From a virus: DNA of 64,000 bases. The DNA lies in IMG/VR virus record IMGVR_UViG_3300023210_000013, positions 1 to 64,000 of that record, one strand, 5' to 3'. Positions 11,912-33,178 of the stretch are shown in pieces; position 1 is the first letter of the stretch, and the number at the start of each line of letters is the position of its first letter. The translations under genes were made by a program, and so were the position numbers. A model generated the notes under the pieces. It had not been told where the DNA came from and did no database searches. It saw only the letters and a program-made list of their open reading frames with translations.

Positions 11912-13093
11912 TTATTTAATAGTATAGTTTATACCAAAAGTTGTTTGAAATAGTTTGCTGTCCCACATTTTTGTAAATTCTCCTTCCATAAATACACCAA
12001 AGTTTTTTCCTACTTTCCAACCTAAAGAAGCACCAAAAGAATAATCAATCCACTGCTCTGGTTCAGCATCTGTTTTTAAACCGCCTATACCCCAATTATT
12101 TCTATTAAGGTAAGTTGCTCTTTCATCTCCTTGTATATATCTATGATAGGGTAGTATATAATTACCGTATGCGTGTACCCAAAAGTTATTTTCATAATGA
12201 TAAAAATCAAAACCAACAATAGGAGCTATCTCACCAAATGCAGATAGTGCATTCCATCTTTCTTGATTATATCTATTCATTAAATCTGTAAAAATAGTTT
12301 CTCTAAACTCTAAGTCAGTATCAGCAACTCTTACTCCATTGGGATCAATCCAGTACCAGTCATTAGTTGTATCACCATTTTCATCTGTTTCTGTATAAAA
12401 GATATCATCATAACCATAATCAAACCCTAAAGTATACCAAGGGTTTACCGGATTACCATTAACATCTGTTTCATTTAACCATATTTCTATAGGATTATAA
12501 CCGTAAGGTCTGTCATGTCTTCTATAGACAGCACCGGCAGATATGCTAAACTTATTACCAATAGGTAGTCTAGCTCTTACTTCAGCAGATTGATACTTTA
12601 AATTAATTGTTCCTACTTCTCTTGACTCAGCTTTAACTATATGATACTTACCTGTGTGTTTTAAAAACACTCTGTGATTTTTATACTCAATTCCACGGAA
12701 CCTTTCTCTTTCAATATGGAATTGATATTCTAAACCTTGTATAGCTGAAGAAGGTGCTGAAAATGCCAGTTGGTTTTCTGTGCCATCATAAAAGTTTTTG
12801 GGTTTTCTTTCATAATCAAAACGTGCTAGTTTACGTATACCAAAACCTATACGGTAATCAAATGGATATTTAATTGTGTTATCCTCTACTCTAGGAATAG
12901 AATAGATACTACCATCATTATTTGTTCTAACAAAATAACTACGTTCTTTTTCTTCTACAGAATTAGAAACATCTCCTGATCCATATATAGTTCCATACTT
13001 AAGAAAGTCATGAGTAAGATCTTTAAAGAAAGTTTTTTGTGCTGATGCATTTAAAGAAAATAATAAAAATAACAGACCAACGTAATACTTCAT
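11912..13093 (-). CDS. Predicted outer-membrane beta-barrel protein (393 aa)
   Basis: A signal peptide (MKYYVGLLFLLFSLNASA followed by Q) leads into a mature protein made of alternating strands rich in Y, F and W, with short turns and long polar loops, some with G-N/D repeats (for example around GDTTNDWYWIDPNG). It ends in a C-terminal strand (TTFGINYTIK) of the type that inserts into the outer membrane, though the last residue is K rather than F. These are signs of an outer-membrane barrel of about 10-14 strands. A phage-encoded barrel in a late operon may block superinfection, help release, or be carried in the virion; all are inferred. A promoter-motif copy lies 40 bases upstream. Confidence 0.65.
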   Translation of the reverse strand: MKYYVGLLFLLFSLNASAQKTFFKDLTHDFLKYGTIYGSGDVSNSVEEKERSYFVRTNNDGSIYSIPRVEDNTIKYPFDYRIGFGIRKLARFDYERKPKNFYDGTENQLAFSAPSSAIQGLEYQFHIERERFRGIEYKNHRVFLKHTGKYHIVKAESREVGTINLKYQSAEVRARLPIGNKFSISAGAVYRRHDRPYGYNPIEIWLNETDVNGNPVNPWYTLGFDYGYDDIFYTETDENGDTTNDWYWIDPNGVRVADTDLEFRETIFTDLMNRYNQERWNALSAFGEIAPIVGFDFYHYENNFWVHAYGNYILPYHRYIQGDERATYLNRNNWGIGGLKTDAEPEQWIDYSFGASLGWKVGKNFGVFMEGEFTKMWDSKLFQTTFGINYTIK

Positions 13094-13133
13094 ATTTAAT
13101 AGTTTTAAAAGGTTGTACGTTGGTTTGTACAGA

Positions 13134-13147
13134 TATAATATACTAAA
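13134..13147 (-). promoter_or_regulatory. Copy of the phage promoter motif (one mismatch)
   Basis: The - strand reads TTTAGTATATTATA, one base different from the 14-mer at 7387, 7803 and 57281. It sits in the 74-base gap between the 1906-residue protein gene and the barrel gene, so it would let the envelope cassette be expressed separately. Confidence 0.5.
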
Positions 13148-13167
13148 AATTATTTTTATATGAAAGA

Positions 13168-16100: not shown

Positions 16101-18888
16101 TAATTTTTTCTTCTCTTTCACCAATTCTATCTAAAGATTCTTCTCTCTTTTGATGCCATAGTTTTTTCATTAAAGCAAGCAAAGTATCTTTGGATGTATT
16201 AATGTCTGTGAAGTTAAGAGTAGCTCCTGAAATTTTTTCTGCTTCTTGAAACAACATTTCAAATTCAGCATCTGTAAAATCTCTTGTGGTTTCATTTTTA
16301 GTAATAAACTTAACGTGGTCAATTATTGCTTGATCAGCTATACTTGGTACATTATTTCTATTGTTTTTACCAGCAACTCTTTTTAAAGTTAAACCTAACT
16401 TATCTTTTAATTTAATTTGAGAACTATTTAAGTTTCCATAAGTTGCAGAAACAGCTGTCAATCCATCAAATGAATCAGCAAATGCTTGAGTATTACGTGC
16501 TACTTGAATAAAATTCACATCACTTAAGTTCTTCTTATCAATTAAATATTTTTCTAATTTTTCAACTTCTCTTAAAGACTGTTGTAAAAATTCAGTATAA
16601 ACTCTAGATGCACTTAAACCATCACCAGAACGCAAAGCTTCCGTTGCCATTGTAATAGCAAGGTTTAATCTAACAATTGTATCTTCTTTGGTTTTATCCA
16701 TAGATATAGCACCTTTTACAGTCTTCAATACTTCAACACGTTTGATCATGTCAGCTTGAAAATTTTCTATACCTTTAAATAATATTTCATACTCAACACC
16801 TCCAGCATCATCTATTCTATCATTTTGATCTGCTGCTGCAACTACGTCATTGTAATCAGCATCTTCCATAATAGGATAGTCAACTGATTCTCTTCTTGCT
16901 TCTTGTATTTTATTCTTGGCTTTCTTGTCAGTATTTCTTTTAACAATTGCATTTACATAAGGTAAATTTTGACCCATAGGATGTGCTACTGGATCTTGTA
17001 TTTTTAATTCACCATTTATTAATTCTACATTGTAAGTAGTAACAGCGGTATCTGAATCTTCAAATTCATAACCCATGTTTTCAAGCATTCTTCTATTTAA
17101 GTTACTTTTAATTGCCTGTCTTGTTTGAGCAGGTAACTTTTGTATTCCTACTTTATTTTTTAAAATAGAACCTTCAGTTAAAGTAACTTCTTTATCATAC
17201 CCTGTTTGGATATCAATTATCTTTAGTTTACCCGCTTTGGTAATTATAACTAAATCAGCTTTACTTGCAATGTTAGTACCGGTTGTATCTAAGTAATGTA
17301 AAATTACATTTGGTATTACTACATCACCGTTTCCCTCCATTAACTTAATGTAAGTACCTAACTCATTATAAAGTTTTTCTGCTTGTTCTTTATTTAACGT
17401 AGTTGTTTTTGTACTTGCAACATCAATACTTTCTTTTAATATAATACTGTTTAATAAAGTATCTATATCATTTCTAAAAGCAATTTCTTCTTTTGTTTCT
17501 TTTGAGCCTAATACATCTCCTGAGATGACTTGGCTTGCTGACTTAATGGATTTACTTAGATTATCAAGTTGATAATATTTTCCATCTTTCTTATTTAATA
17601 TTACTATAGTATTACCTTTTGCTATTTCTGCTTGATTTGCAGATAAAGAATCAACAGACTCTTTGTCTGAAGATACTATATTAAACAAGTTTTTAATTAT
17701 TGCTTTTTGTGCAACACCCGCTTTGCTCATTGCTGAGTCTACTACTTTTTGTTTATCAGAAGATAAAGAGTATTTAACTTTTTTTATGTTTGATACTTTT
17801 AAATCAAATATTACATTGCTTGTATTAAGAAGTTTTGCAACATCTGAAAGATTTGCTGTAGACTTTATAGCAGATGTAGGTAATTTTATATCACCATCAA
17901 CTGTTATGTAATCATGCAAGTCTTGTATAACAGACATGAACCACTCAAGCATTTCTTTTACTTTACCTAAAAATGTTTTAGTAGGCTTTGTTTCATAATC
18001 ATTATCAAAATGTCTAGTTAAAGCTTGTGTTATTAATTCTAAGTCTCTTTGGTAATCAGTAAACCTTCCATTCTTAGTATTATATGCTTCATCTATTTGT
18101 TGTTTCAATATAGGGAAACTTTTTTTAGCTTCTTCTACAAGGGATTTAAATAGCTCAGGGTTGTCTAGTGCTAAACTGTCTGTAAAAGCGTGTAAGACTT
18201 CTTCTATTGCAGTCTCATTAGTTACTCTACCTTGAATTAAAACTACTTGCCCGTCATAATAAAAAGAATTAATGTTGGCAAAGTTTACTTTGTTTTTAGT
18301 TCCCGGATCTAATTTTTTATAATAAGCTTCAGCTTGTTTAACTGATACAACATTCATTCTTAACTCAGGAAACATTCTTTGTAAATGACCTAAAACTTTA
18401 ATAGTATGTGTACCGTAAGCTTTTCTATTTTCAGGTAGCATATCATTAAGACTAAACAAGTCTTCATTCACTACAACTCTATATGACTTTGGAGTTCTAA
18501 CAAGAGTAACTGACCCTTGAGGTATGTTGTTTTGACTAAGATATCTTAATGCTCTTTTATAGTTATATTGCAAAAACTCAGGAGATCCTTCTCTGGCATT
18601 AGGTGCTGTATTATTTATAAAGTAATCACCACCCAATTCATTAGATACACTTGCTATTTTTAGACGGCTTAAATTAGTTAGAACGGCTTCTTTAAAATTT
18701 TTCTGTTTTAAAGAAAGAGCAACCTTACTATCTTCCATCATTTGCAATGCCTCTTCTGTTGTAGGAAAAGTATCTTCTTTTGTTAAAGATTGCCATCTTG
18801 ATATAACATTGTTAACAGCAGATTCATTTGGAAACTCTTCTCTTAAAGCTTTATACTCAGGAAGATTTACATTATAACACTTACTCAT
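13168..18888 (-). CDS. Giant virion protein with degenerate zincin and PD-(D/E)xK-like domains (1906 aa)
   Basis: A second giant protein, directly after the polymerase giant (4-base gap), as in crAss-like phages where such proteins are packed and ejected. Three regions can be read. Around 225-290 there is a zincin-like helix, I-E229-E230-V-L-H233-A-F, with a following E284; the first histidine of HExxH is replaced by E, so it is probably inactive. Around 535-565 a nuclease-like core appears, with A-D545-L-V-I-I, G-K-L-K-I-I-D559-I-Q561-T-G, a PD-(D/E)xK pattern in which the lysine is Q. The C-terminal third holds IHGNYAHEDRM, FHKWVVPAIRARY and one hydrophobic helix near residue 1750. I expect a DNA-ejection or polymerase-associated protein; function is inferred. 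Confidence 0.7.
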   Translation of the reverse strand: MSKCYNVNLPEYKALREEFPNESAVNNVISRWQSLTKEDTFPTTEEALQMMEDSKVALSLKQKNFKEAVLTNLSRLKIASVSNELGGDYFINNTAPNAREGSPEFLQYNYKRALRYLSQNNIPQGSVTLVRTPKSYRVVVNEDLFSLNDMLPENRKAYGTHTIKVLGHLQRMFPELRMNVVSVKQAEAYYKKLDPGTKNKVNFANINSFYYDGQVVLIQGRVTNETAIEEVLHAFTDSLALDNPELFKSLVEEAKKSFPILKQQIDEAYNTKNGRFTDYQRDLELITQALTRHFDNDYETKPTKTFLGKVKEMLEWFMSVIQDLHDYITVDGDIKLPTSAIKSTANLSDVAKLLNTSNVIFDLKVSNIKKVKYSLSSDKQKVVDSAMSKAGVAQKAIIKNLFNIVSSDKESVDSLSANQAEIAKGNTIVILNKKDGKYYQLDNLSKSIKSASQVISGDVLGSKETKEEIAFRNDIDTLLNSIILKESIDVASTKTTTLNKEQAEKLYNELGTYIKLMEGNGDVVIPNVILHYLDTTGTNIASKADLVIITKAGKLKIIDIQTGYDKEVTLTEGSILKNKVGIQKLPAQTRQAIKSNLNRRMLENMGYEFEDSDTAVTTYNVELINGELKIQDPVAHPMGQNLPYVNAIVKRNTDKKAKNKIQEARRESVDYPIMEDADYNDVVAAADQNDRIDDAGGVEYEILFKGIENFQADMIKRVEVLKTVKGAISMDKTKEDTIVRLNLAITMATEALRSGDGLSASRVYTEFLQQSLREVEKLEKYLIDKKNLSDVNFIQVARNTQAFADSFDGLTAVSATYGNLNSSQIKLKDKLGLTLKRVAGKNNRNNVPSIADQAIIDHVKFITKNETTRDFTDAEFEMLFQEAEKISGATLNFTDINTSKDTLLALMKKLWHQKREESLDRIGEREEKIIAAGAYLRKLSPGKNDKEIFEFIIETDKDGNHTGRYVVELGQKYTDLYDALYNETVDGDGVPLQYKEILDVKTADKADIAFNKDLYYKKKAFSAFKSPETPAGMFGLTPTDGDFHKFTEEWKEIRSQYQEYLPLGDFGIWEFKAGITDEQIAEFQAKYGNTVIYNSPVLIDGVPTGMVAEKRNWFPDKKFTEARPITVVDGETIDLRSDKYIAIMEADPNDALAMARKSFYLVVKEQYENGMLKQLPENVRDFMLGKTPRVQGKLMTQLSKNPNVVTSYVARQKQSMKDFFTETTRLSRVNVDENGEVIDSLPIMFVGSLKDEAAVEKIQQDIVDLKQDYADDKIGSSEFESELRVLQSKEIALRSKPKAEELSWDVVSTMLKFSVMAQTYESMTSIEDTLLAFVKVIEDRKYKEPAKSKYKKMISAKFSSTFGKKGNDVEALAPGKDSNNAKHARAFMNMVFYNNAEVTKGMVEKAVDKLLAYSSLSYVGFNVFGNFNNYVLGRINNGIEMMGQRFFSRDAYMRASKEFNKRALQDMWNRTAHAVAKKTTGTKYDPYQPISKYEAFVDLFRMMDSSSDIREQGQQGDYVSYFQRFANVGYVFQDAAEYNVQTKVGMALLMDTYILNPATGELSTLFDAFDFDDANQKLVMKEGFTTMVKIKKDVPTFGKMFKGNISAKDAGGNLIYTETGSFTDKVRYDIRMKIREVNKQIHGNYAHEDRMVIQVHTWGKLLAQFHKWVVPAIRARYQKRYYDENLGWMEGRYNSWANFVLYFVKNVAKNKEKEKSMMQSWMESSTKGGKGFKNDGSQNDEKFINAALNVHRTNAELAILISILTIISTLRGIWKDDDDDSDLVKRLKNLSLYQATRARDELQLFIPLLGMSDALAFFESPFAATKALGEFGNVMDKTWDLGTAGLRYAITGNDEDWYGNKDVYYQRGYRADQMKIKKEIMDIVPILYEIKKWEDMIQTRSFYIGD

Positions 18889-18892
18889 ATCA

Positions 18893-21800
18893 TTATAGTT
18901 TTATGCGGCATCCTTGGTCAACAAGAAATTCTTTTATTGTTTCAAAGTTACTTAATTTAAATGACTTTATGAAGCCATCTTGCGTTGTTCCTATCCCGGC
19001 AGCTTTTAATATCTCTTTGTTTTCTTTATTTTTATTTATATAATCATAAAAGAATTGTATTATTTCAGAATCACCGTCTGTCATACCAAGATCTAATTCA
19101 AGTTGTGTTCCTGGATCATCAACATCTACCTCTTCTATTTGAGACATTATAGCATCCATTTTTTCTTGATCTTTTTCTGTTAATTCAATACCTTTAGAAA
19201 GGCCTTTATTTGAAATAAAACTAAGCAACTTATCTGTTGGATCATTAACCTCTTCTGGACGTGCTGTAGCGTCTGCTATATTAACACCATCAATATCAAT
19301 GTTCTCTTCAGTAGCTATTCTATTTGTATTAGCAAAATTAGACATTTTATCATTTGCTTTTTCTGCACCTGAAAAATCAACATTATCAAAATCTACATTA
19401 TCTATTTCATCAAGACCTTCTATGTCATCAAAGTTTACTCCGTAATAATCATCCTTTGAAAACTCTCTTAACTCAGCTAAAGTTGGTCTATTAAAGTTTT
19501 CTGTGTTAAACATAAACCCAATAGCATTTTGTTTATAAGCACCTTTCAATTCTATTTTTTCATAAACAACACTGTCTGCTTCTACTCTACCGTTTAAAGC
19601 TGAAGGCATTAAAGTAACACCTAAACCTTTTCCTGATTTTTTAAAATCATTAGCTCTTACAAGTTTATAATAAGAAGTTGTTCTAGTTTGATCTGCATTA
19701 ATATCAGTCTTTGAAATAAATAATGAAAAAGGATATTGTGGTTTTTCATCACTAGTTCTAGTGTAAGTCAGATTATCTTCAAATATAGTTTCTTCATAAC
19801 TGTGTGGTGCTTTTGGACCACTTATAAAGTCTTTACTAAAGACTGCAATGTTTCTTGAATTAATAGCAGACTCACCATAGTTATTTACAAACTCATCCTG
19901 TAGTTCTTGAAGTGATACTCCAAAAACACTTTCATAACTTTTCTTACCTTGAAATGCTTGTACAGCATCCGTTGCTGAATCTAAATAATTCTCCATTATA
20001 AATGGAACTAAAGAATCAATTATACTTCCATTAGCGTATTGTAAACCATCTTTTACCATAGCATAATGAATTATGTTTACAGCATCAGCTCTAGTATCAC
20101 TTTGTCCATACAACTGGTGAAATCCATTTTGGATACGTAATTTTTCATTAGCACTAAGCTTACCAAAACTTCTAGATTGAATTAAGTTTAATCCAGTAGT
20201 GTTTGTTTTACTGTCTGCAGGATTACTAAATAAATAATAATCTAAGAAATAATTAGAAGTGCCTTCATGTTTTTCTCTTAGTTCTTCAAATATAGTATTT
20301 GCATTAAATTTAGTTTCTGCATTACCATATATAAACTCATTAGATAAAGAACCTCCAATTGCTGCAGCCGCTTCATCACTATTAAATACTCTATGCATAT
20401 AAGACTTCATAGTCAAATATGTAAGTAAGTTTTTAGATATGCCATCCATAACTTGAGCTGAAGCACTTTTCTTAGTATAACCCTCTACCCCAGCATAGAT
20501 CTTTTTAAAGTCTTCTGTTCTAGATAAAAATACTTTAGGTAATACTTCAGTACTAAATTCATTATATACTTCTAATAAATCCCCTACGTAATGTTCTTTT
20601 ATAGCAGACCTCATATCAAAAGGTCTTATTATTTTTTTAAATTCTTTATCATCTAAATACAGACCTAAAGTTTTTATAGCATTATCTTTTTCATTAAGAC
20701 TAATAAAGTCTTGACCAAATCCTGTATTAAGATTAAAGATTGGAATCATGTTATCTATAAACTTTTTGACATCCATAAAGTCAAGTATGGTTTCATAGAT
20801 TGAATATAACTCTTCATCAGTAGCATTAGCATTAACACCAGCAGCTAATGTTACATCTGTAACTTTAACTTGTGTTCCTTCTTTTACTTGAAGCTCTTTA
20901 AGTGCACCTTTAATTTCACTTTTAGCTGTCATAGGATCTTTCATGGCTTGTCTAATAGCTGCAACATTTACAAACATTGTTGCTGTATGTAGTGATACAC
21001 CCAGACCAATCATTGTTTCTACTACACCTATAGATGCTTTATTAAAACCTAACTTAGATAAAATTCTTTCTTTAGCATCATCTGTAGCTGCAGTAATAAG
21101 TGCTGATAATAAATACTGTGCTCTTGTTTCTTCATTTTTAACATTGGTTTCAAACCTATCATAGTTTATACCATTAATGTCAAGTGATCCCCATTTAGGA
21201 TTAAGAATAACTTCTGTTTCTTTTAAGAAGTTTATTACAACATTTCTTGGGACTACTGCTCCAATTAAATTAGAGTTTTGTTTTACATTAACGTGAGTAT
21301 AGAATTGACCAGGCAAACTATCAATAGGTAAATCTTCTTTTGAAAGTTCTGCTAATTGCGGAAACTGTCTAAATAAATTATCTACTTCTGCTTTTAATGC
21401 AACAACATCTGCTGGTTGATAAGCTACAGGTTTTTGACCATTAACTGATTCAGTCATACCTTTGTTACCTTGCAAAGCAGTTTTTAAATCTAGGAGTTGA
21501 TTATTAATAGCACCTTTATATGGTTCTGTTTTATAATCTTTTTTATATTGTTTGTACTCAGCAAATGTTCTTGGTAAGTTTAATGTAGTTAAGGCATCTA
21601 ATGTATCTGCAGTAAAACCAAATTTTTTAATTAATTCTTCTTTTACTTCCGGGTCTAAAACTCTTGATAAACTTGGACGCGTTGTCTCAAATTTATATAG
21701 AGCATCATATAAGTAAGATCCTTTTTTACCTGTTAATTTATTTTGATAAACTATGTAGTCACCAAAACTTTCTTCTTCTGAAACATTGGCTCTACCATAT

Positions 21801-24800
21801 TCTATAAATTGCTTGTTCTTGACATACCATTCTTTTACATGAGTAAAAACTTTATCAATATCAAAATCCGCTCCTGATACTTCTACAAGTTCTTCTGGAA
21901 ATACAGCTGTTGAACCAAGGTATACAGGATCAAAATCTACTATTCTTACATTAAGAGAAGAGTGTTTATCTTGAGAAGGTATTCTTACAGCAAACATTTT
22001 TGCAACTGCTGCAGGCATTCTACCTGTACCATTCTCTATAAGATCCATTACTTCTTTATAATGTGCGGGTACAATACCCTCAGCATATCTTTCATTTGTA
22101 GCAACCCAAGTACTTGGATCACCTTCTGTAACATATTCTACTAAGTCTACTCTTAGTCTATCAATAACAGTTACTCCTTCAGGATTTGTTTTTAAAGCTT
22201 CAGCTAACAATTCAAAACCATTTGGTTCTCTTAAGTCTATAGTTATTTTAGCGTTACCGCTTTTAACATAAGCTTTTCTTCTAACAACTTCTTGTTTATC
22301 TAAATTACCTTCTGCATCTAAACTATATACTTTTCTAATTACAGATTTTCCAAAAGATGATTTTAATGCTAAAGCATGTCCCTCAACTTTTTCTTGTAGT
22401 ACACCTTGACTAAAGTAAGATAAAAAGAATTGCTCAAACTTTTTAATAGCTAATGGTTGATTAAGCTCATACTTGTTTGTTCCGTTCTCATCAGTAAAGA
22501 ATTCAATTTGATTACTACCAGCGGCTGAAGACTTTAAGTTTGCCTGAGCTGTACGTAAGAATGTAGCATAACTAGGTGCTACTTCTCCGTTCTCAACCAT
22601 TGTATCTATAATGTCATTATCCAAGTTTTGGATAGTCTCAAACATTAAATCTTTTTTCTGACTAAACTCAAACTTAATACCAGCTCCTGTTAGTCTATGG
22701 TATTCTTTTCTAATATATCCTACAGGTACTTCCTTACCATTTAATAATACTGTCTCATCATCACTTTGCTCACTAGTAACTATAGTTTTAATCTGATTAG
22801 GTAAAGTAACCTTTGTTTTATTAGAAGGGTTGACCTGTTGTAAACCAAAATCTTTTGCATTTAATGGCGTTATGTCATCTAACGTTAAAGGATTATTTGT
22901 TTCACTTAGTCTAGCTAATGTTTGTACTTTTTGCTTAAACATTTTAGAAGCAGAGACCGGAACTAAGAATGCAATCTTTTCAGGATTGTTTCTTTCAAAT
23001 TCTTCTAACATTTCTCTTGCAGCATTAAGCTGTTCCATTCCTTGTTTAGCTACTCTTTTTCCATTTACTACATCAGATGTTTCTTGTTTAGTTAATGGTG
23101 TAGTTGACATTTTATCAAATACATTCCCATCACCATAAACATATTTCTTTGAGTTTAATACAGCATTTTGTTTTAAGTATCCATTCTTACCAAACCATTC
23201 TTCAGATGTAATCTCAACACCCGCATCAACTTTGTCCATTAACTCAACATAAGCATCATTTAATTCAGCTAAACCAAAAGCAAAATATCTTGCTCCTTTT
23301 GCTGTATAATAAGTTTGTGCATCTGTTTTTTCTCCACCTCTGTTTCCTGGTTGAGCTCCATCAGTAAATCTTTGTTCAAACAAATCATCTTCTACTAATA
23401 TCATAGAAATAGAACCTTCACCTAAAGTATGGTATATACCTTTAGCTGGATCTACTACTGTTGTTTCTACTGGAGTAATTGCTCTGTTCTGCATTTTAGC
23501 TCTCTTAATAGGATCTACAAATGCATCTTTAAATAACCTAGCTTCTTCACCTAATATTAATTGGTTGATGGCCATTGTATTTAAATAATTACTTAAAACT
23601 ATTTGTGCAATGTTTACTATTTGAGTACTATTATCAAGACCTAATTCTTGTTTAGCTCTTAATGCTTTTTTAGACTTAGGGAAAAAGCCTCTAGCTAAAA
23701 GAGAAATTCCTTGGAACTGAGTATTACTTTCATCTGCTGATAATTGTCTAGCAATATTTTCATCTTTAGCAAGACTTGCAAACTCATCTACTAGAGATTC
23801 TAGTCCTTTTACTATAGATCCTCCTTTGTCAAAACCTGATGAATCAAACGCTTCTCCTTTTTTAGCTTTTTCTATTAAGGTATCTTGAGTAGCTTTATCC
23901 ATTAACCAAGCTGTCTTAAAGAATTTAAATCCTCTACCTTTATCTGGTCTTGTGGATTCAACATCATTATAACCAAGGATACCTTGTGGTCCTTCTATAC
24001 CTTCTTTAAAGTTTTCTTTTATTGCATTGTATTCTCTTTCTATTTCATTAATAGTAAGATTAACTGTGTTAGGTAGAATGCTGTATTTACCAATACCTTC
24101 ACCAGACTTGTCATTAACAGTTTGGATAATAGGAAGCTTAACCATATCATTGGTATTTGATGCTTCCATAATTCTTAAAAGAACAGGTGCTATAGCTTTA
24201 GTTACTTCTAGCCCATCTTCAATATAAGTAATTTTACTATTTGTTTCACTAGTTGTATTGTAAGAAGCTGTATACATGTCTATTAACATTGTTACAAATT
24301 CTTTTGATGTCATTTCACCATAAGCAGATGCTTCATCTGTCATTGCAGCTTCAGATAAATTATCAATTTTATCTTCTGTTAAATCAGTAATCCTTGTTCC
24401 TGAGTTTCTTTCAATAACAAGCTCATTATCCGCAGCCATTTGTATAAAGGCCGGGTTGTTTAATAATAGGTTATTACTTAAAAATGGAGTAGTCTCTTCT
24501 AAAGTTTCTAAAAAGTCTACATCATTTAATTGTTTTATTCTATTAGAATGGAATGTTTGTTTTTGATGAGCATATATTAGTTTACCATTTACATCTACAA
24601 ATACAGTAGCACCAATTGCTTCATCAAAGTTTGCATTACCTAAAGCTAATTTATTTAACCTTGTACTCATACCTTTACCTGCATCATCTACAAATAAATT
24701 TTCTGGAGCTGGTTGTCTTTTCTTTGTTCCTTTAATTACTTGAGTTACATCAAGTCTATTAACAAACTGTTCTGCATCTTCTTTTGTAATAAGATTACTA

Positions 24801-27800
24801 TCACTACCTATTAAAGCCATTTCTCTTTGGAAATTTGTTGACTTATTTTTAAGAGCTGAAATAATACTTACTTCTAAATAACCTCTACTAAAACTAACAC
24901 CAATTGCTTCATAAATTGCTTGTGATAAATACTCAGCTTGAAGTCTTATATCTTTATTAGTCATGTTGCTTTTACCTAAAACACCTTGCAAAGTTCTCAT
25001 AACTTGAAGTGCTTTGGTTAAAGTCTCAGGATTAGATTTATAATTTTCAAACTTATCACCATGAAACTTTTTCCATGCATCAATTTGTGCATTAGCAGCA
25101 TCTGACTGTGTAGCTGAAATAATTAAAGCCTTTCCTGTTACTGGATCTTTTAAGTGGAAGTTATATCCAAATCTACTATTTTGATAAGTCTTTATAAAGT
25201 CATGATAAAGTTTAGAATCTTTAACCTCTGTGGGTAATGCTCCTGACTCAATGACATCTTCCATAGTAGTATTAGAATCTGTAATACCCACTGTATTTAA
25301 AAATCTATCAATAACAGCAGATGTGTTAACTGATCTTCTAGAATGATAATACATTCTTTTAAGGATTTCAAAATGTGATGTCTGATTCATTGCTGCTAAC
25401 ATTAAACCTGTATGAGCATCAACGTAGTTTGCATGAACTTTAATTTTCTCTCCATTCAATAGTTCAGTATTACCAAACATGTCTGTTGAATCAATAGTTG
25501 TAGAACTAATAAATAATTTTACACGTTGACTTGGTTTGATACCAACTTCTTGGCTTTCCATTCCATATTGAGAAGTACTTCTGCTTCCAACAGATTGTTC
25601 TAGTTCATCAATTTCTTCTTCTTCTCTTTCAGTTTTTATTTGAAAAAGCTCAAGGTAATCTTCTACTTCTTTAATTATTGCTTCACCATCATTTAATTCT
25701 AATGCTTGATAAATTTGTTCTAGTTTATCAGCTTGAGAATCTGATAAATTTTCACCACTGTATTGTGCATTACCTGGATTGTATAAGTCAGCGTAGTCTG
25801 CTAAAACAGATCCTATATATATTTTATCTATTTCTTCTTGTTCAGTTTCTTTTCCAGAAAATTTATCAGCAAGTGCTTGTACTTTTTGTGCATTTACTTT
25901 TTCATTTCTTTCATCTATTCTTTCTGCATAAGTATTAGCAATTGTTCTTATTAAGATATCTGCAGTAGCAGGATCTAAATATAACTCAGAAGCAAATACT
26001 TCACCGCTAATAGACTCATATGGGATTGCTTTTAAAGCTTCTATTGTTACATCCCCTTCAACATCTCTTGTATAAAAGTTTTCTTGTATAGAGCTACCTC
26101 TATATTTACCTGAATCTATATTTTCAAATACATTAAGTAAATCACTTTTACCTTTAAAACGTTTTAATGATCTTTTAATCCATTCAACTATTCTGTTAAA
26201 GAATGATTTAATAGTAGATGATGTTTTGGTGCTTCTAGGGTTTTGCTTAAACTTAGCAAACTCATCAGCCATATACTCTTCTAAATATTCACGTTCTAAT
26301 CTCTTAGCGTTCATATCTCCATATAAAGGATTAAGACCTTTAAATTTACCTAATGCTTCATCAAGAGCTTCTTGTGAACCAAGCTTACTTAACAATTCAC
26401 CTTTAGCAATTCTAAGTAAATTAGATTGTTCTTTGTCTGTAAGTAACATTCTAAATACAGCGTGAAAAGCTTCATGATAAGCTATCAAAGTAGATGGACT
26501 TGTATATATAGTTCCTTCTCCTTGTAACCCACCTGATAAGTTTCTTAAAGACATAACAAATTTACCAGCAGTAAAACCGTTAGCTTTCAGTCTGTCTTTA
26601 ACTTCATTAATATCTTTTACAGTAATAAAACCAGGAAGATTATTTTGAGCCCAAGAAATAAATTCATCAATTTTTAAATCTTCAGATATTGATTCTTGAG
26701 TATCAACTATTTTAAAAGCATTTTTACGTTGTGCTTTTAATTCTTTAATTTTACTTGTAATATTTTTATACTCTTCAGATTCTTGTTTTAAATTATATCT
26801 GTTTAAACCTTCAGCTTTAGCTCTGGTATTTATTTCAGATTCCAAAACTTTCTTTTGTTTTTCAAGAGTTGTTATTTGTTCTTCTAATGTTTGTTCACTC
26901 TCATTCTTTTGTGTTTCAGCTGCAATTTTATTTCCTTGTCTCCAAACTTGAAACTTATCTTTGTTGTTTCCAACTGTAGGAATAGAAGAATCCAGTCTAT
27001 CTCTAACATATCTTTCAAGAAGATCAAGCTCATTCATATAGAATTTATACCTACTGTCAGATCCAAGATATTTCATTATCATATCTTTCCCTACCTCCTT
27101 GGTAATCTTTCCTGATGCAACGCTTTTTTCTACTACGGCTATATAATCTTCTATTGAGTTTTCAGCTTCAACAGCTTCTTGACCTACTAAGACACCACCC
27201 TCAACTCTGATAGATACAACGCCTTCAGTGTTACCTCTATATGAGTTTTGTTTTGCTATAACTAATTCAGCCTGAAGAGCTTTAAATTTCTTTAAATCTT
27301 TAGTTTGTATAGAACCATCTTCAGACCTTAAGTCTTTTATCTGTTGTTCTACATTAGCCAGAGCATCCTCATACTTTTGATTAGGATTTACTTCTTTATT
27401 TATAGGACCCGCATCTTGTTGAGCTTTTCTATCAACTAATATTTGATTTATTAAACCTGTATTAGCTTCAAATATAGCAGCTTCTTGAGGAGTTAATGGC
27501 CCAGCATTTTGAATTTTAGTTGCAAGGTTTTCTAAAGTTGCTTCTGAAACTTTACCTGTTTCTACAAACTCATCAAACTCACTTACAGGTTTTTCTTTAG
27601 GTCCAGGTATTATTTCTTCTACCTCTGTTAAGTTACCTGTGAAATTAAAATACATCTTTTGACTATGTCTAACTCTAGGGTCAATATCAGTAACAGTTTT
27701 TTCTATCATTTCCTGAGCCGTAGCTGTAGTATCAAATACAACTGTCATAGAATCTCCTGAAAGATTTACTTTGTTAGGTACAGTTTTATTGTATACAACA

Positions 27801-30800
27801 ACTTTTGGATTTGCATTAATTTTTGCAAACAACTCTTCTACTAACATAGGGTTGTCTACTAATGCATCTATATTTCTAGCTTTAACAGATGCAAATGCAA
27901 CAAGAACTGTTTTAGCACCTTGACCTTTTTTATCTTTTACGCTTAACTTAAGAAGTATGTCTCCATTATCTTGTACTTTTAAATCCACAAAAGAATTAGG
28001 CACACTTGCCAAATAGAATCCACTATTAAAAGAATCATTAAAGTCATAGTTGTATTTAGAATCTACAACTTTGCCATCTTTAATATTATCGTCAACTGTA
28101 TCTTTTGCTCTTTGAACAAGTTTAGAATAAAGAACTGTTCTTTCACTTTCTGATACAGCTTTTTGTTTAAGTTGTACTAAAGTAATAGCTCCACTTGGAG
28201 ATTTAACAACAGCTACATATCTACCAGTTATTGAAGCAACATAAGATAGATTTGATTCTCCACTTTCTAATTCTGATTTTTTTAATTGATCTTCAACTGA
28301 TTGTATAAATTCTACTTCTTCATTTACATTTTCTATATCTGTAGTATAATTTGTAGATATACTACCATCTTTGTTTTTAGTATTTGTAATAATTATAGTA
28401 TTACCATCAAAGGTTCCATATACTAAATCATCTAAACTTTTTGCTATACCATCAAAACTAAATTTACCTTGCGTCAGCTTTAGTTCAGTATTTGTTTGCT
28501 CTTGGAATTCTGCCAATGTCATAGTAGCATTATTTTCCATAGCATCTAACTTTCCTGTAAGAGCTGCTTGTTTTATAACTTGAGATTTTAAATCTTCTAT
28601 GCTTGAACCTTCTGCTAAAATGTATGCGTTTAAATTATTATCAGTAAACTCATTTATACTAATGCTTTTTCCGCTTTTACCTTTAAAGCTAAAATGATTA
28701 TTTCTTACAAATGCAATAGAACCATCCCAACCAGCAGGATATAAGTCAGCAACTTTTTCTGCTGCTTCTTGTGACAAACTAATTTGCACCATATACTTAT
28801 CTCCATTTTTAGAAATAAATGGATTCTCTGGTTCTACACCTAACTGATAAGATGTTCCATCTTTAGGTATATTTAAAACTACCCTAACTATAGACTCATT
28901 TAATTCTTGCTCTGTAAGTCTTTCTAATATTTTTTGTAATCTTGCTTCAGCTTCCGCAACAGTTTCTCTTAAACCTGTTGTTTCATTATTCATTTGTTTA
29001 GCATAGATACCATTAATATCACGGTGATCTATCTTAGTCATGTTAGCAGAATACTTTACTTCAGCAACTTTAAGTTGTTCTTTAGTATATAAAGTATTAA
29101 ACCCTGCTTCTTCTACATAAAAAATAGATTCTAGTTTATCATTTTTAGATGCATCTAATTTTTCAAATGGAATTAATTTTAAAAGATTGCCTTTTTTAGT
29201 AGAGCTTTCTGTTCCAAGTACAATGTATTTGTTTCCATCAACATCAACTACCTCATCACCATACTTTATTTCTTGACCATCAAAGTTGTAAGCTTGCTCA
29301 CTAGGAACTATTTTAAGAAGTCTTTCCCAAGCACTCCATGCTTTGTCCATTTCATCTTGACTAGCACCGTAAGAGTTTCTAGCATTAGCTTCATCTAGAA
29401 ATGTTTGAGGTAATGTTTTACCTTTATTATCTACTATACTATATATGAAATCAGGTTCATTTGATCCTTCTTGGTAAACTGTTCTTTTTACAATGTTAAC
29501 ACCCGGTCCTAGTTGAGCTACTTTAGTAGTATTAGTGTTTACTATAGATTCTAAACCTTGTTCAGACTCAGCAGTAAATATACTTGAATCAATACCACCT
29601 AATGCTAAAAGGAATTTTACTGGTTTACTTTCAATAGATTCAGCAACCCAAGCTTTAAAACCTTCTTCAGCATTATAACTTTCTCCTTGTTCATCAAGTG
29701 TTTTAAACCACAGTCTTTTAAGACTATCTAAACCATTGACAGCATTATTACCTTCTGTAGAGTTTAACCATTCTTCTAAGGATACAATTGAATTACCCTC
29801 ATTAATATTTTTAATTTTATAAGAAGCATACATTTGCTCCAAGACATCCTGTGATACAGGAGATTGTCCTTCTAAAAGAATATTTGCATCAGGGGCACTG
29901 TTTATATCTTTAAAATCAGATTCATCTAAATTAGTTTCAACAGCATCATCAAAATTATCTTTTGACTTAGGTGCTTCAGTAGCTTTCTTTTTAGGTTTAT
30001 CAGTTTTTACTTCTTCTTCTTTTACTTTAAATCCAGAAGTCTCCTTGTAAATACTTATAAGAGCATTTATTTTTTCAAATATTTCTTTATCTATTTCAGG
30101 ATTAAGTACACCTTTAGCTGAAATAAATTGAGTTATTGATGTAACATCACGCGTTTCTATAAAAGCTTTAAACTGTTCATCACTTATTACAATACCTAAT
30201 TGTTTAAGTTGTTGAAGTAATATATTAGCATGCTCATCTGCAACACCAGCTTCCATATTTTTTTCAAATATATCTTTGGCCTTACTATATAAAACTTTAA
30301 ACTGATCACTTAATCTATCTACTAAATCTAAAACTTTTTCAGGGTCTCCAAATAAAGCAACTGTTCTATCAAACAATTGAGATCTTGTATCTAAGTTATT
30401 ATGATCAAGAAGTTGAGCTAATACTTTGTCTACTTCACCTCTTTTAATATAACCGTTTTTATTATTACTTCTAGCACCTAGTACTTTTAAATAATTAATT
30501 AACGGAGTTCTTAATTTATTAGATTTACTTCTATCATATACTTTTGAATCTTTATCATATATACTATCTAAAGCAACTTTATATGTTAATAGACTTGTAA
30601 GTAATTTTTGTTTTTGCTTAAGGTCTTTAGTTGTAAGCTTATCTTTATTATCAGTATCCTGTAGAGTTTTTATCTCTTTCATTAACATGACTACCTCTTG
30701 ATCAATAGTATCACTAGTTAGTAGTTTAGTTAAGTCACCTGCTTGAAGATTACTTAATACATCAGAAGATTCTAAAGCTGCCTCTAGACCAAATCTTCTT

Positions 30801-33178
30801 GCGTTAGCCATTTTAAATTCATTCTTAGCAACTAAATAAAGAAGTCTAGCATGTTCTATAGCATTATGTTTTATCCTAGAATCATTATATTCTTTGGTAT
30901 CTTTATCATATTGCTCATAGTTTTCTGGGTTTCTTATTACATCAAAAGAATCATTATATTCTTTCTCTTGTACTTTCATCCCATCAATAGACTTTTGTAT
31001 TTTTTCTCTTACATCAGATATATCTTTTGCAGAGTCTGGATAAAGTTCTTTAAGTTCTTCATCTTTTAAACCTAGTAAGTCTTCTAGTTGTTCTACATAC
31101 AAACCTGTTGCACCCGCAGTCATTAAAAAATGTCTGTGTTGAAATGCAGCTATATCTTTTGCATCTTGAAAACCTAAATGATCATCTTCTAAAAGACTTC
31201 TTTTTGTTTGTTCATCACCTTCTTGTGCTTGGAATAAAGAAAGATTGGTAGGATTAAAATAATCAAAAGGATTGTCTTGTATATCATCTCCTATTTCATT
31301 TATTATTTTAATATACTTTTCTTTATTTTCTTGATATTTTTTATACTGTTCAGGGTTTGTCTTTTTTTGATATATTTCAGGAAGAACTTCAAACATTGCT
31401 CTTTGAGGTCCTTGCACAATACCACCCATTAAAAAACCAGACATAAAAACATGAGCACCTTCAGCACTCATTTGACTATTAAAACCGGCTTTCATAGCGG
31501 CCATCTTAGCATCTGTCTTTAAAGCTAATGGATTTTCCATTAAAGTTCTATGGTAGTCTACAACACCAACTTGAACTCCTTCTTGATATACTTCTTGTAA
31601 ACCTTCTCCAATACTTGCTGCAGAATACCTTAGTAAACCAGCACCAGTATTTTTTAATGTGGTTCTAGCACCTAAAGCTTTAAGTCTTTTAATGTTTAAA
31701 AAGTTACCCATTAAGGTTTTAGGAGTAACATCAGTATATAAACCTTTGCTTAATCCACCACCTTTAGTTCTAACTCCTTTAGTTCTAACTATATTTTTTG
31801 CAAAACCAGGAAGCTTATCACTAAAGATTCTTCTTAACGTAGGAGAAAAACCTTTTAAAGCTGTTCCAAGTACAAGCTTGTTAGTTAAGAAAATAGCAGG
31901 AGCATTTAACCATAATGTTTCAGTAGCTCCTTTTAAAGCATCTGTGTTAATTTCTTCTAACTGTTCTCTTGTTAGATCACCGCCTCCATTTTCTTCTGAC
32001 TTAATTCTTACACCTTCAGCATAAATTTCATTAAAAGCAAAACCAGCTTCCATTTTACCTTCACTCATTGCAAAGTTAATTGAACGCATGTCTCTGTAAA
32101 AAGCTCCAAATCCTTTAGACATTTTAGCTACAGAAGTAATTCCATTTGCTGTATTTTCAGCAGACTTCATTGCTTTTATAGCAGCCATTGTTTCAGGTGC
32201 AAAGACTGTTCCTGCTAATCTAAAAGGTGCAGCACCTGCAGCTCTTATTGCAGTAAATGCATCACGCGCAGATTCAACAGCTCTAATAGAATCTAATATT
32301 GATCCACCAGCTTTAACAGCTTTAGTTACATCAAATAGATTACCCATTGTTTTAATACCTCTAACAAAATTTCTACCGGTACCTGCTAGAAATGCACCAA
32401 TACCTGCAGGTGCTCCAACACCAGTTGAACTTAAAGCAGCAGAACCAGCAGCTAATGCTAATTCTTCAGCTGCAATAGAACCTAATATACCAAATGTATA
32501 TCCTGTTTGTAAAAATAAATTTGCGGCACCTCCACCAAATCCACCTCTTGTACTACTACCCATTCTATTAGCTTCTGCAAACTCATAAGAAGATTGATAG
32601 TCTGCATCCATCCAATAATTATCATCATCAAATAAATCTCCAATAGCTCTATAGCCAGACATAAAACCTGAGCCTAAACCATCTGACCAATAAGGTACTT
32701 GTCTAGTAAAAAATTCTGCTGTAGCTGAACTATTTTGATTATAATATTTTTCATTATCCCTTAAAGGATTATAACCTAATTCATCAAATTTATAATGATC
32801 TCTTACCCTGTCAAAACCTGAACTTTTAGCTCCTGAGATTAAAGGTTGTTCATACAAAGGTTCATTACTTACACCTTGCATGTAACTATTAGGATTATTA
32901 AAAACTTTACTAAAATTATCAAAACTACTTTCAGGTGTATTTTTAATCCCCACATTAGAAGGAATTAAAAGATTTACTGTAGGTACAATATCTTGCATTG
33001 TGCGTTTGAATTCATCTGCAACTTGATCATCATAATCAGCAGGGAAATCAAACAACTCATCTATAGGTTGAAACTCAAAATTTTCAGGATTCCAAGTTTC
33101 AGAAATAGTTGTGTTGGGAGATACTTGGGTCTGAGCTGCTTCTGGAACAGTCAGGCCGTCTTGATTTTTTTGTTCCAT
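18893..33178 (-). CDS. Giant virion RNA polymerase polyprotein with zinc protease domain (4761 aa)
   Basis: The key motif is D3771-F-D3773-I-D3775 in the context V-S-G-A-D-F-D-I-D-K-V-F. It matches the metal-binding DxDxD of multisubunit RNA polymerase beta-prime and the DFDID of the crAss-like virion polymerase. About 39 residues before it R-I-P-S-Q-D-K-H-S-S matches the R-x-P element that precedes this motif in beta-prime. Near 2235 there is a complete zincin site: H2235-E-A-F-H2239, with E2301 in E-Y-M-A-D-E-F-A as third ligand. Residues of about 212-266 are Ala/Gly-rich and hydrophobic, possibly membrane-active. Long helical stretches separate the parts. I infer that it is packed in the head, ejected, perhaps cleaved, and transcribes early genes. 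It is far larger than known single-polymerase versions. Confidence 0.8.
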   Translation of the reverse strand: MEQKNQDGLTVPEAAQTQVSPNTTISETWNPENFEFQPIDELFDFPADYDDQVADEFKRTMQDIVPTVNLLIPSNVGIKNTPESSFDNFSKVFNNPNSYMQGVSNEPLYEQPLISGAKSSGFDRVRDHYKFDELGYNPLRDNEKYYNQNSSATAEFFTRQVPYWSDGLGSGFMSGYRAIGDLFDDDNYWMDADYQSSYEFAEANRMGSSTRGGFGGGAANLFLQTGYTFGILGSIAAEELALAAGSAALSSTGVGAPAGIGAFLAGTGRNFVRGIKTMGNLFDVTKAVKAGGSILDSIRAVESARDAFTAIRAAGAAPFRLAGTVFAPETMAAIKAMKSAENTANGITSVAKMSKGFGAFYRDMRSINFAMSEGKMEAGFAFNEIYAEGVRIKSEENGGGDLTREQLEEINTDALKGATETLWLNAPAIFLTNKLVLGTALKGFSPTLRRIFSDKLPGFAKNIVRTKGVRTKGGGLSKGLYTDVTPKTLMGNFLNIKRLKALGARTTLKNTGAGLLRYSAASIGEGLQEVYQEGVQVGVVDYHRTLMENPLALKTDAKMAAMKAGFNSQMSAEGAHVFMSGFLMGGIVQGPQRAMFEVLPEIYQKKTNPEQYKKYQENKEKYIKIINEIGDDIQDNPFDYFNPTNLSLFQAQEGDEQTKRSLLEDDHLGFQDAKDIAAFQHRHFLMTAGATGLYVEQLEDLLGLKDEELKELYPDSAKDISDVREKIQKSIDGMKVQEKEYNDSFDVIRNPENYEQYDKDTKEYNDSRIKHNAIEHARLLYLVAKNEFKMANARRFGLEAALESSDVLSNLQAGDLTKLLTSDTIDQEVVMLMKEIKTLQDTDNKDKLTTKDLKQKQKLLTSLLTYKVALDSIYDKDSKVYDRSKSNKLRTPLINYLKVLGARSNNKNGYIKRGEVDKVLAQLLDHNNLDTRSQLFDRTVALFGDPEKVLDLVDRLSDQFKVLYSKAKDIFEKNMEAGVADEHANILLQQLKQLGIVISDEQFKAFIETRDVTSITQFISAKGVLNPEIDKEIFEKINALISIYKETSGFKVKEEEVKTDKPKKKATEAPKSKDNFDDAVETNLDESDFKDINSAPDANILLEGQSPVSQDVLEQMYASYKIKNINEGNSIVSLEEWLNSTEGNNAVNGLDSLKRLWFKTLDEQGESYNAEEGFKAWVAESIESKPVKFLLALGGIDSSIFTAESEQGLESIVNTNTTKVAQLGPGVNIVKRTVYQEGSNEPDFIYSIVDNKGKTLPQTFLDEANARNSYGASQDEMDKAWSAWERLLKIVPSEQAYNFDGQEIKYGDEVVDVDGNKYIVLGTESSTKKGNLLKLIPFEKLDASKNDKLESIFYVEEAGFNTLYTKEQLKVAEVKYSANMTKIDHRDINGIYAKQMNNETTGLRETVAEAEARLQKILERLTEQELNESIVRVVLNIPKDGTSYQLGVEPENPFISKNGDKYMVQISLSQEAAEKVADLYPAGWDGSIAFVRNNHFSFKGKSGKSISINEFTDNNLNAYILAEGSSIEDLKSQVIKQAALTGKLDAMENNATMTLAEFQEQTNTELKLTQGKFSFDGIAKSLDDLVYGTFDGNTIIITNTKNKDGSISTNYTTDIENVNEEVEFIQSVEDQLKKSELESGESNLSYVASITGRYVAVVKSPSGAITLVQLKQKAVSESERTVLYSKLVQRAKDTVDDNIKDGKVVDSKYNYDFNDSFNSGFYLASVPNSFVDLKVQDNGDILLKLSVKDKKGQGAKTVLVAFASVKARNIDALVDNPMLVEELFAKINANPKVVVYNKTVPNKVNLSGDSMTVVFDTTATAQEMIEKTVTDIDPRVRHSQKMYFNFTGNLTEVEEIIPGPKEKPVSEFDEFVETGKVSEATLENLATKIQNAGPLTPQEAAIFEANTGLINQILVDRKAQQDAGPINKEVNPNQKYEDALANVEQQIKDLRSEDGSIQTKDLKKFKALQAELVIAKQNSYRGNTEGVVSIRVEGGVLVGQEAVEAENSIEDYIAVVEKSVASGKITKEVGKDMIMKYLGSDSRYKFYMNELDLLERYVRDRLDSSIPTVGNNKDKFQVWRQGNKIAAETQKNESEQTLEEQITTLEKQKKVLESEINTRAKAEGLNRYNLKQESEEYKNITSKIKELKAQRKNAFKIVDTQESISEDLKIDEFISWAQNNLPGFITVKDINEVKDRLKANGFTAGKFVMSLRNLSGGLQGEGTIYTSPSTLIAYHEAFHAVFRMLLTDKEQSNLLRIAKGELLSKLGSQEALDEALGKFKGLNPLYGDMNAKRLEREYLEEYMADEFAKFKQNPRSTKTSSTIKSFFNRIVEWIKRSLKRFKGKSDLLNVFENIDSGKYRGSSIQENFYTRDVEGDVTIEALKAIPYESISGEVFASELYLDPATADILIRTIANTYAERIDERNEKVNAQKVQALADKFSGKETEQEEIDKIYIGSVLADYADLYNPGNAQYSGENLSDSQADKLEQIYQALELNDGEAIIKEVEDYLELFQIKTEREEEEIDELEQSVGSRSTSQYGMESQEVGIKPSQRVKLFISSTTIDSTDMFGNTELLNGEKIKVHANYVDAHTGLMLAAMNQTSHFEILKRMYYHSRRSVNTSAVIDRFLNTVGITDSNTTMEDVIESGALPTEVKDSKLYHDFIKTYQNSRFGYNFHLKDPVTGKALIISATQSDAANAQIDAWKKFHGDKFENYKSNPETLTKALQVMRTLQGVLGKSNMTNKDIRLQAEYLSQAIYEAIGVSFSRGYLEVSIISALKNKSTNFQREMALIGSDSNLITKEDAEQFVNRLDVTQVIKGTKKRQPAPENLFVDDAGKGMSTRLNKLALGNANFDEAIGATVFVDVNGKLIYAHQKQTFHSNRIKQLNDVDFLETLEETTPFLSNNLLLNNPAFIQMAADNELVIERNSGTRITDLTEDKIDNLSEAAMTDEASAYGEMTSKEFVTMLIDMYTASYNTTSETNSKITYIEDGLEVTKAIAPVLLRIMEASNTNDMVKLPIIQTVNDKSGEGIGKYSILPNTVNLTINEIEREYNAIKENFKEGIEGPQGILGYNDVESTRPDKGRGFKFFKTAWLMDKATQDTLIEKAKKGEAFDSSGFDKGGSIVKGLESLVDEFASLAKDENIARQLSADESNTQFQGISLLARGFFPKSKKALRAKQELGLDNSTQIVNIAQIVLSNYLNTMAINQLILGEEARLFKDAFVDPIKRAKMQNRAITPVETTVVDPAKGIYHTLGEGSISMILVEDDLFEQRFTDGAQPGNRGGEKTDAQTYYTAKGARYFAFGLAELNDAYVELMDKVDAGVEITSEEWFGKNGYLKQNAVLNSKKYVYGDGNVFDKMSTTPLTKQETSDVVNGKRVAKQGMEQLNAAREMLEEFERNNPEKIAFLVPVSASKMFKQKVQTLARLSETNNPLTLDDITPLNAKDFGLQQVNPSNKTKVTLPNQIKTIVTSEQSDDETVLLNGKEVPVGYIRKEYHRLTGAGIKFEFSQKKDLMFETIQNLDNDIIDTMVENGEVAPSYATFLRTAQANLKSSAAGSNQIEFFTDENGTNKYELNQPLAIKKFEQFFLSYFSQGVLQEKVEGHALALKSSFGKSVIRKVYSLDAEGNLDKQEVVRRKAYVKSGNAKITIDLREPNGFELLAEALKTNPEGVTVIDRLRVDLVEYVTEGDPSTWVATNERYAEGIVPAHYKEVMDLIENGTGRMPAAVAKMFAVRIPSQDKHSSLNVRIVDFDPVYLGSTAVFPEELVEVSGADFDIDKVFTHVKEWYVKNKQFIEYGRANVSEEESFGDYIVYQNKLTGKKGSYLYDALYKFETTRPSLSRVLDPEVKEELIKKFGFTADTLDALTTLNLPRTFAEYKQYKKDYKTEPYKGAINNQLLDLKTALQGNKGMTESVNGQKPVAYQPADVVALKAEVDNLFRQFPQLAELSKEDLPIDSLPGQFYTHVNVKQNSNLIGAVVPRNVVINFLKETEVILNPKWGSLDINGINYDRFETNVKNEETRAQYLLSALITAATDDAKERILSKLGFNKASIGVVETMIGLGVSLHTATMFVNVAAIRQAMKDPMTAKSEIKGALKELQVKEGTQVKVTDVTLAAGVNANATDEELYSIYETILDFMDVKKFIDNMIPIFNLNTGFGQDFISLNEKDNAIKTLGLYLDDKEFKKIIRPFDMRSAIKEHYVGDLLEVYNEFSTEVLPKVFLSRTEDFKKIYAGVEGYTKKSASAQVMDGISKNLLTYLTMKSYMHRVFNSDEAAAAIGGSLSNEFIYGNAETKFNANTIFEELREKHEGTSNYFLDYYLFSNPADSKTNTTGLNLIQSRSFGKLSANEKLRIQNGFHQLYGQSDTRADAVNIIHYAMVKDGLQYANGSIIDSLVPFIMENYLDSATDAVQAFQGKKSYESVFGVSLQELQDEFVNNYGESAINSRNIAVFSKDFISGPKAPHSYEETIFEDNLTYTRTSDEKPQYPFSLFISKTDINADQTRTTSYYKLVRANDFKKSGKGLGVTLMPSALNGRVEADSVVYEKIELKGAYKQNAIGFMFNTENFNRPTLAELREFSKDDYYGVNFDDIEGLDEIDNVDFDNVDFSGAEKANDKMSNFANTNRIATEENIDIDGVNIADATARPEEVNDPTDKLLSFISNKGLSKGIELTEKDQEKMDAIMSQIEEVDVDDPGTQLELDLGMTDGDSEIIQFFYDYINKNKENKEILKAAGIGTTQDGFIKSFKLSNFETIKEFLVDQGCRIKL

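Follow-up and report, generated by a model that had tools for sequence, protein, structure and literature searches.

The virion RNA polymerase of Cellulophaga phage phi14:2 (6VR4) is the nearest solved structure to the protein described here, both in sequence and in fold. It stands alone, and the neighbouring gp78 is without an HExxH motif, which in this phage occurs in gp76 and gp81. In crAss001 (Steigviridae), gp50 and gp47, the latter a protein of 2341 aa with an HEAFH context at its end, are encoded by two genes on opposite strands, and both are present in virions together with gp49 (PMC10172136; PMC6235969). Giant fusions of members of this block are found in p-crAssphage (BK010471), where gp45 already carries the name "RNAP associated protein fused to zincin protease" and the name of gp44 is "RNAP catalytic subunit fused to unknown RNAP subunit". 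N4-like virion RNA polymerases also combine a giant polymerase and a zincin-like domain in one chain (PMC5512222; PMC12633501), and gp96 of Thermus phage P23-45 joins a two-barrel polymerase to a giant ejected virion protein (5002 aa; PMC10770324). The same study mentions vRNAP fusions in crAss-like phages, and a search of its text found no mention of a protease domain in the P23-45 protein (PMC10770324).

The locus treated here lies on a stretch of 64,000 nucleotides (the window) taken from IMG/VR virus record IMGVR_UViG_3300023210_000013, which is 115,581 bases long. It shares the gp47 and gp50 modules with crAss001 but holds them in a single gene. Unlike p-crAssphage, in which the polymerase is joined to a gp49-like part and the zincin motif reads HESLH, it has the polymerase behind a gp47-like region with HEAFH. 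The polymerase of N4-like phages is of the T7 type with a single subunit and is followed, not preceded, by the zincin, while that of P23-45 is N-terminal and has the tail tape measure as its fusion partner.

The phage and its cargo genes

The rest of the record encodes a portal protein (phrog_6547, E 4e-86), a TerL (phrog_6681, E 1e-39) and an MCP (phrog_11589, E 1e-33). By tblastn with MCP and portal, the nearest phage is Leptolyngbya phage Lbo-JY46, followed by the crAss-like csAssE-Sib, cr108_1 and phi17:2. Together, these genes and neighbours identify the phage as crAss-like but not as a member of the well-known gut families. Searches of phage records at the DNA level gave no match. Besides the giant frame, the window carries the following genes:

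8187-9167, plus strand, ribonucleotide reductase small subunit (phrog_86, E 1e-64)
9332-10957, plus strand, ribonucleotide reductase large subunit (phrog_84, E 2e-144)
13168..18888, minus strand, 1906-aa gp49-like protein, third member of the crAss transcription/cargo block
40993..45321, minus strand, 1442-aa protein with an endolysin-type domain (PHROGs 1493/2649, endolysin)
57704-58894, minus strand, tail fibre protein (matches collagen-like minor tail protein families)

The 1906-residue neighbour of the giant protein is as the original prediction described it, and it has crAss001 gp49 as a homologue (tblastn, E 4e-10; phmmer, E 1e-16 in a small set). By gene order, the 1442-aa protein occupies the position of cargo protein C1 (gp45; the "tail lysozyme" of bajarodcaudo virus).

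The host of Lbo-JY46, which MCP and portal place nearest among isolates, is a cyanobacterium. The gp47- and gp49-type cargo proteins of this phage are encoded at L009:20603-25261 and 12355-20601 (also L221 and L222), and a search of its whole genome detected no two-barrel polymerase of the crAss-like family. A DWDGD motif (TKILLSDWDGDYF) is present in a neighbouring frame of 675 codons. The occurrence of both protein types without the polymerase suggests that gp47 and gp49 are ejection or cargo proteins themselves, not just polymerase subunits, and the giant protein of the window is therefore read as an ejected cargo protein with a polymerase attached.

Architecture of the 4761-residue protein

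Positions 18893-33178 of the minus strand form one frame of 4761 codons with an ATG start and zero internal stops (table 11). The original prediction had placed HEAFH at residues 2235-2239, a downstream glutamate at E2301 and DFDID at residues 3771-3775 in one uninterrupted frame, all of which is confirmed. HEAFH is the sole HExxH of the protein, EYMAD starts from E2301, and DFDID stands in the context SGADFDIDKVF. When the protein's own composition was shuffled 2000 times, HExxH appeared in 2.9% of the shuffles, HExxH with ExxAD or ExxGD within 90 residues downstream in 0.2%, and GxDFDxD in 0.4%; each motif is thus above chance expectation, and homology confirms both sites. Neither Pfam nor PHROGs holds a family for the whole protein. 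Its features are:

18893..33178, minus strand, 4761-aa fused protein: gp47-like cargo region, zincin and two-barrel virion RNA polymerase
30767..31957, minus strand, conserved gp47 module, residues 408-804 (hhalign to crAss001 gp47 and Lbo-JY46)
26063..26692, minus strand, zincin-like domain, residues 2163-2372 (hhalign and AF2)
26462..26476, minus strand, HEAFH, residues 2235-2239, with predicted zinc ligands H2235 and H2239 and predicted general base E2236
26276..26281, minus strand, E2300-E2301 of the EEYMAD motif, predicted third zinc ligand
25544..26062, minus strand, variable linker between zincin and polymerase, residues 2373-2545
19931..25543, minus strand, crAss-like virion RNA polymerase region, residues 2546-4416 (hhalign)
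20939..23203, minus strand, polymerase core modelled with AF2, residues 3326-4080
21854..21868, minus strand, DFDID, residues 3771-3775, catalytic Mg2+-binding motif

Profile comparisons by hhalign divide the protein into two halves. Residues 408-804 match positions 360-723 of crAss001 gp47 (crAss001 family; prob 99.3) and the 1552-aa protein of Lbo-JY46 (prob 99.6), and residues 2163-2372 match the C-terminal end of crAss001 gp47 (2092-2303; prob 98.7, E 1.7e-16). With the profile of the fused family, residues 2546-4416 match crAss001 gp50 298-2193 and its relatives (prob 100, E 9e-52), and residues 2821-4394 match phi14:2 gp77/6VR4 498-1971 (prob 99.8, E 1.7e-29). The two control comparisons, of the cargo half with the polymerase and of the polymerase half with gp47, both stayed below 1%. 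These matches make the giant protein a gp47, a virion cargo protein with a zincin, fused end to end to gp50, and we regard this fused architecture and the identity of the polymerase as all but certain. A membrane anchor in the gp47 half was also considered and is unsupported by hydropathy, which shows no strong membrane segment there (best 19-residue mean 1.44, at 231-249).

For the polymerase half, tblastn finds crAss-like RNA polymerases at E 6e-7. The AF2 model of residues 3326-4080 has a mean pLDDT of 88.5 and a pTM of 0.90, and Foldseek against the PDB returns 6vr4_A first (E 2.8e-14, prob 1.00, TMq 0.55) and then other two-barrel polymerases, with the P23-45 vRNAP second. A profile of the same residues has 6VR4 as its sole relevant match among PDB sequences (hmmsearch, E 3.6e-23). 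The two-barrel fold expected around residue 3771 is thus found in the model, and the polymerase is of this type, not of the T7 type that forms the single-subunit core of the N4-like enzymes. D3771, F3772, D3773 and D3775 do not vary among 53 non-redundant fused relatives; invariant R/P/S/G residues and DFDxD are common to crAss001, cr128_1, Dulem 41, p-crAssphage and phi14:2; and the DxDxD motif aligns in phi14:2, crAss001 and p-crAssphage. The length of about 2200 residues given for the studied polymerase in the original prediction agrees with phi14:2 gp77, which has 2180 aa in KC821624 and forms the 2194-aa chain of 6VR4.

For the zincin-like domain the evidence is of a different kind. H2235, E2236, H2239, E2300 and E2301 are invariant in the 53 non-redundant fused relatives, a set picked partly by motif, and the two glutamates are invariant in 94 aligned relatives, which include 31 picked by the polymerase and not by the zincin scan. 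The AF2 model has a mean pLDDT of 67.9, rising to about 83-95 in the active-site helices, and its order of a helix, three strands, the HEAFH helix and a Glu helix matches the core order of zincin-like MPTases, in which the third part is the HExxH helix (PMC5512222). In model numbering, the elements are H31-41, E46-50, E66-75, E78-87, H91-106 and H152-173, with HEAFH at 96-100 in H91-106 and EE at 161-162 in H152-173. Foldseek of this model against the PDB matched no solved zincin, and against BFVD it found at E <= 0.001 only crAss-like gp47-type proteins. The best PDB match by hmmsearch, the Pro-Pro endopeptidase 6fpc, is aligned over the stretch from HExxH to Glu and is non-significant (E 0.045), and no Pfam family scored above the cut-off for the domain. 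With a model of modest confidence and no match to a solved zincin, the assignment rests on motif, conservation and topology. On these grounds, residues 2163-2372 are a probable gluzincin-like metalloprotease domain, and the conserved residues suggest that it is probably competent in catalysis.

The linker that follows varies between 141 and 190 aa across relatives, and no conserved cleavage motif was found in it. It is the only obvious place for a putative autocleavage site.

Distribution of the fusion

A single-sequence scan of viral contigs (tblastn type) was unsuccessful, and alignments were needed. Scans of viral contigs yielded 514 polymerase relatives and 255 zincin relatives, and the best 80 of each were fetched. 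Loci L090-L169 were fetched by the HEAFH motif, so its invariance there is biased; the loci picked by polymerase (L010-L089) were used instead as the fair count. Among these best 80 of 514, HExFH and DFDID share one frame in 69 of the 73 contigs with enough upstream sequence. In three of the four exceptions (L029, L037 and L068) the zincin is intact and the frame is broken between it and the polymerase. The remaining one, the close relative L045 (L045:3263-13147), has an intact polymerase, has lost the zincin core and carries the N-terminal part of gp47 in another frame. In at least 62 fetched loci the fused frame is complete, with a length of 3.8-5.5 thousand residues, and the spacing from HExxH to DFDxD is mostly about 1400-1550 residues in a large environmental clade and in the Suoliviridae gut phages. 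An assembly artefact as the source of the fusion was rejected, since the same frame occurs in dozens of independent contigs.

The same giant protein is encoded by public Suoliviridae (delta crAss-like phages): cr50_1, cr10_1, cr118_1, cr1_1 and cr114_1, the last of which must be read with TAG as Gln. As in the window, one protein of ~4270-4950 aa is recognised as a polymerase by profile, a gp49-like gene adjoins it, and HEA[FWY]H lies 1442-1501 residues upstream of DFD[IV]D. These proteins differ from that of the window in being distant in sequence and in forming a separate clade of the polymerase tree, where the window falls in an environmental clade (99% SH-aLRT) apart from the named gut families. 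The gene of cr108_1 is also fused and has a group I intron (RF00028, E 1e-20; L001:24427-24745) inside the DxDxD codons; in place of one gp47-zincin-polymerase gene, the deposited record gives two ORFs, of 2967 and 798 aa, each called "hypothetical protein". The cr50_1 protein (YP_010110216.1, L213) is annotated "DNA helicase" and the cr118_1 protein (YP_010110531.1, L216) "exonuclease V", and in both the profile shows the polymerase region. Six TAG-recoded crAss-like phages, on contigs binned with hosts that include Bacilli, Mollicutes and Sphaerochaeta (L180, L184, L185, L189, L192 and L204), likewise show HEA[FW]H and DFD[IV]D in a single fused frame, 4.2-5.0 thousand residues long, when TAG is read as Gln.

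The original proposal of one chain with both a zincin-type site and a crAss-like virion RNA polymerase is therefore upheld. That the arrangement is unusual is not supported: it is standard in the environmental clade and in Suoliviridae. In such phages the gp47-zincin-polymerase fusion occurs regularly and is already present in deposited records, and it is ordinary for the group.

Other layouts of the block were also found. Three separate genes are present in crAss001 and Dulem 41; the polymerase is fused to a gp49-like part, with the zincin on a gp47-like protein, in p-crAssphage, crAss002, cr3_1 and ctbg_1; and the zincin heads the polymerase gene in L209 (HEAFH) and L176 (EEAFH), where the body of gp47 either lies at another place or was not detected. 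The zincin thus sits between gp47 and the polymerase wherever the gene boundary falls, be it after the zincin (crAss001), before it (L209, L176) or nowhere (the window). The L176 gene (L176:4973-15073) lies on a 229 kb contig of a bacterial isolate, Spirosoma oryzae DSM 28354 (NZ_PVTE01000009.1); its N-terminal zincin is without the first His, a gp49-like gene follows, and the locus is possibly a prophage or captured phage. About four changes on the polymerase tree are required to account for the N-terminal fusion, which is thus ancestral or arose more than once.

Further HExxH motifs (HELIH, HELSH, HEIMH, HEYLH and others) are present in other giant cargo proteins of the block, namely at L006:13452-20975 (cr116_1), in gp76 and gp81 of phi14:2 (L008) and in gp49-like frames of L158, L161, L163 and L168, and zincin-like domains may thus be spread through crAss cargo proteins.

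Probable packaging and ejection, and possible processing

The relatives suggest how such a protein may work. Its N-terminal half is a gp47-type cargo protein ending in a probable gluzincin-like metalloprotease domain, and its C-terminal half is a two-barrel virion RNA polymerase in a single chain (gp50/gp66 type). By analogy with these relatives, the chain would be packaged in the head with the gp49-like and other cargo proteins and ejected together with the DNA, after which its polymerase would transcribe early genes. The phi14:2 homologues are annotated as structural by MS/MS. Packaging and early transcription, known for the phi14:2 and crAss001 homologues only, are most likely the tasks of the giant protein as well, and the gp47-zincin-polymerase architecture combined with a role as virion cargo is, in our judgement, highly likely.

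What the zincin does is a matter of weighing several readings. The favoured one is that it processes the giant chain, in cis or in trans, at the linker between zincin and polymerase around or after ejection; such a cut would free the polymerase from the cargo half. The proteolysis, its site and its timing are inferred, and processing is favoured by the invariant catalytic set, the fixed position at the junction and the pattern of zincin loss. The zincin is absent from the gp47-like protein in four unfused lineages sampled (cr111_1, DAC15, cr116_1 and phi14:2), while loss in fused proteins is rare (L045 and Flavobacterium phage Fpv1), a contrast that is only suggestive in a small and phylogenetically linked sample. 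On the other side stand the two fused proteins without it, the variable and motif-free linker, and the unfused lineages, most of which keep the zincin. Indeed, the idea that the domain serves solely to split the fusion was rejected, for HEAFH is kept in the unfused crAss001, cr128_1 and Dulem virus 41. The N4 virion RNAP, which is also linked to a zincin, is reported to be packaged unprocessed (PMC5512222), which counts against processing. Our literature search found no report of a test of whether the protease cuts the giant protein. Self-processing by the zincin, though the likeliest of the readings, falls somewhat short of probable.

The size of the proteins in virions bears on when a cut could occur. 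Bands near 150, 270 and >300 kDa in gels of crAss001 virions (PMC6235969) fit uncut gp49, gp47 and gp50, respectively, and argue against gross cutting in virions. They also speak against a chain that is cut before or during packaging, with gp47-like and polymerase pieces held separately in the virion, as does the N4 polymerase packaged whole. Such an early cut would resemble that of phage P1 DdrB, which has a C-terminal zincin and is processed before packaging (PMC5512222), and the split crAss phages show that both halves work as separate chains; it nevertheless seems quite improbable. The original prediction had also offered the 1906-residue neighbour as a substrate. The giant protein and this gp49-like protein are probably in the same cargo pool, but nothing was found in favour of the cut, either in the sequence or in crAss001, whose gp49 was identified in virions and has a 150 kDa band against 154.5 kDa expected. 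We consider it very improbable indeed.

The same bands favour a reading in which the zincin is structural or related to assembly, binding the polymerase and aiding packaging in a chain of 4761 aa that stays intact throughout. The N4 virion RNAP, with its HExxH domain, is packaged uncut and needs the region of this domain for encapsidation (PMC5512222), and in the N4 structure the HExxH-bearing C1 domain in the C-terminal part is packed against the polymerase (PMC12633501). The P23-45 vRNAP stays fused to the tape measure, and the crAss-like and N4 fusions are discussed likewise (PMC10770324). A linker without a conserved cleavage motif and a gene boundary that shifts regardless of any cut site agree with this. 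However, the catalytic residues are all conserved, and not the fold alone, which a purely structural domain would not need; loss of a ligand is confined to rare relatives (L176, EEAFH). An intact chain with a structural zincin is a tentative reading and somewhat unlikely.

Retention of the zincin in split crAss phages, which have no gp47-polymerase bond to cut, would suit a role as injected effector, for which the cargo protein is only the vehicle and a host protein, attacked early in infection, is the substrate. Host-directed proteolysis has been offered as an alternative for such domains (PMC5512222), and zincin motifs recur in other cargo proteins (the gp49-like proteins of L158 and L161, and phi14:2 gp76). 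Yet the constant position between gp47 and polymerase in fused chains and the near-universal retention suggest a link to the junction, and a host-directed effector appears distinctly unlikely. In a more specific form of self-processing, the chain is a polyprotein for ejection whose self-cutting is confined to the infected cell, where the zincin releases active polymerase and the gp47 half remains with the DNA entry machinery; we consider this unlikely, if worth keeping in view.

The gut crAss proteins deposited as "DNA helicase" or "exonuclease V" are gp47-zincin-polymerase fusions. Fused proteins nearly always keep an intact zincin and several split lineages (cr111_1, DAC15, cr116_1, phi14:2) are without it, which makes the family a testable case. 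Release of the polymerase by the protease once the chain has been injected, if it occurs, would account for the working of a giant cargo chain whose jobs are incompatible, and also for the zincin that accompanies the unrelated polymerase of N4-like phages. If the chain does cut itself in the infected cell, zincins would have been recruited at least twice for the same job, beside the unrelated polymerase folds of N4-like and crAss-like phages.
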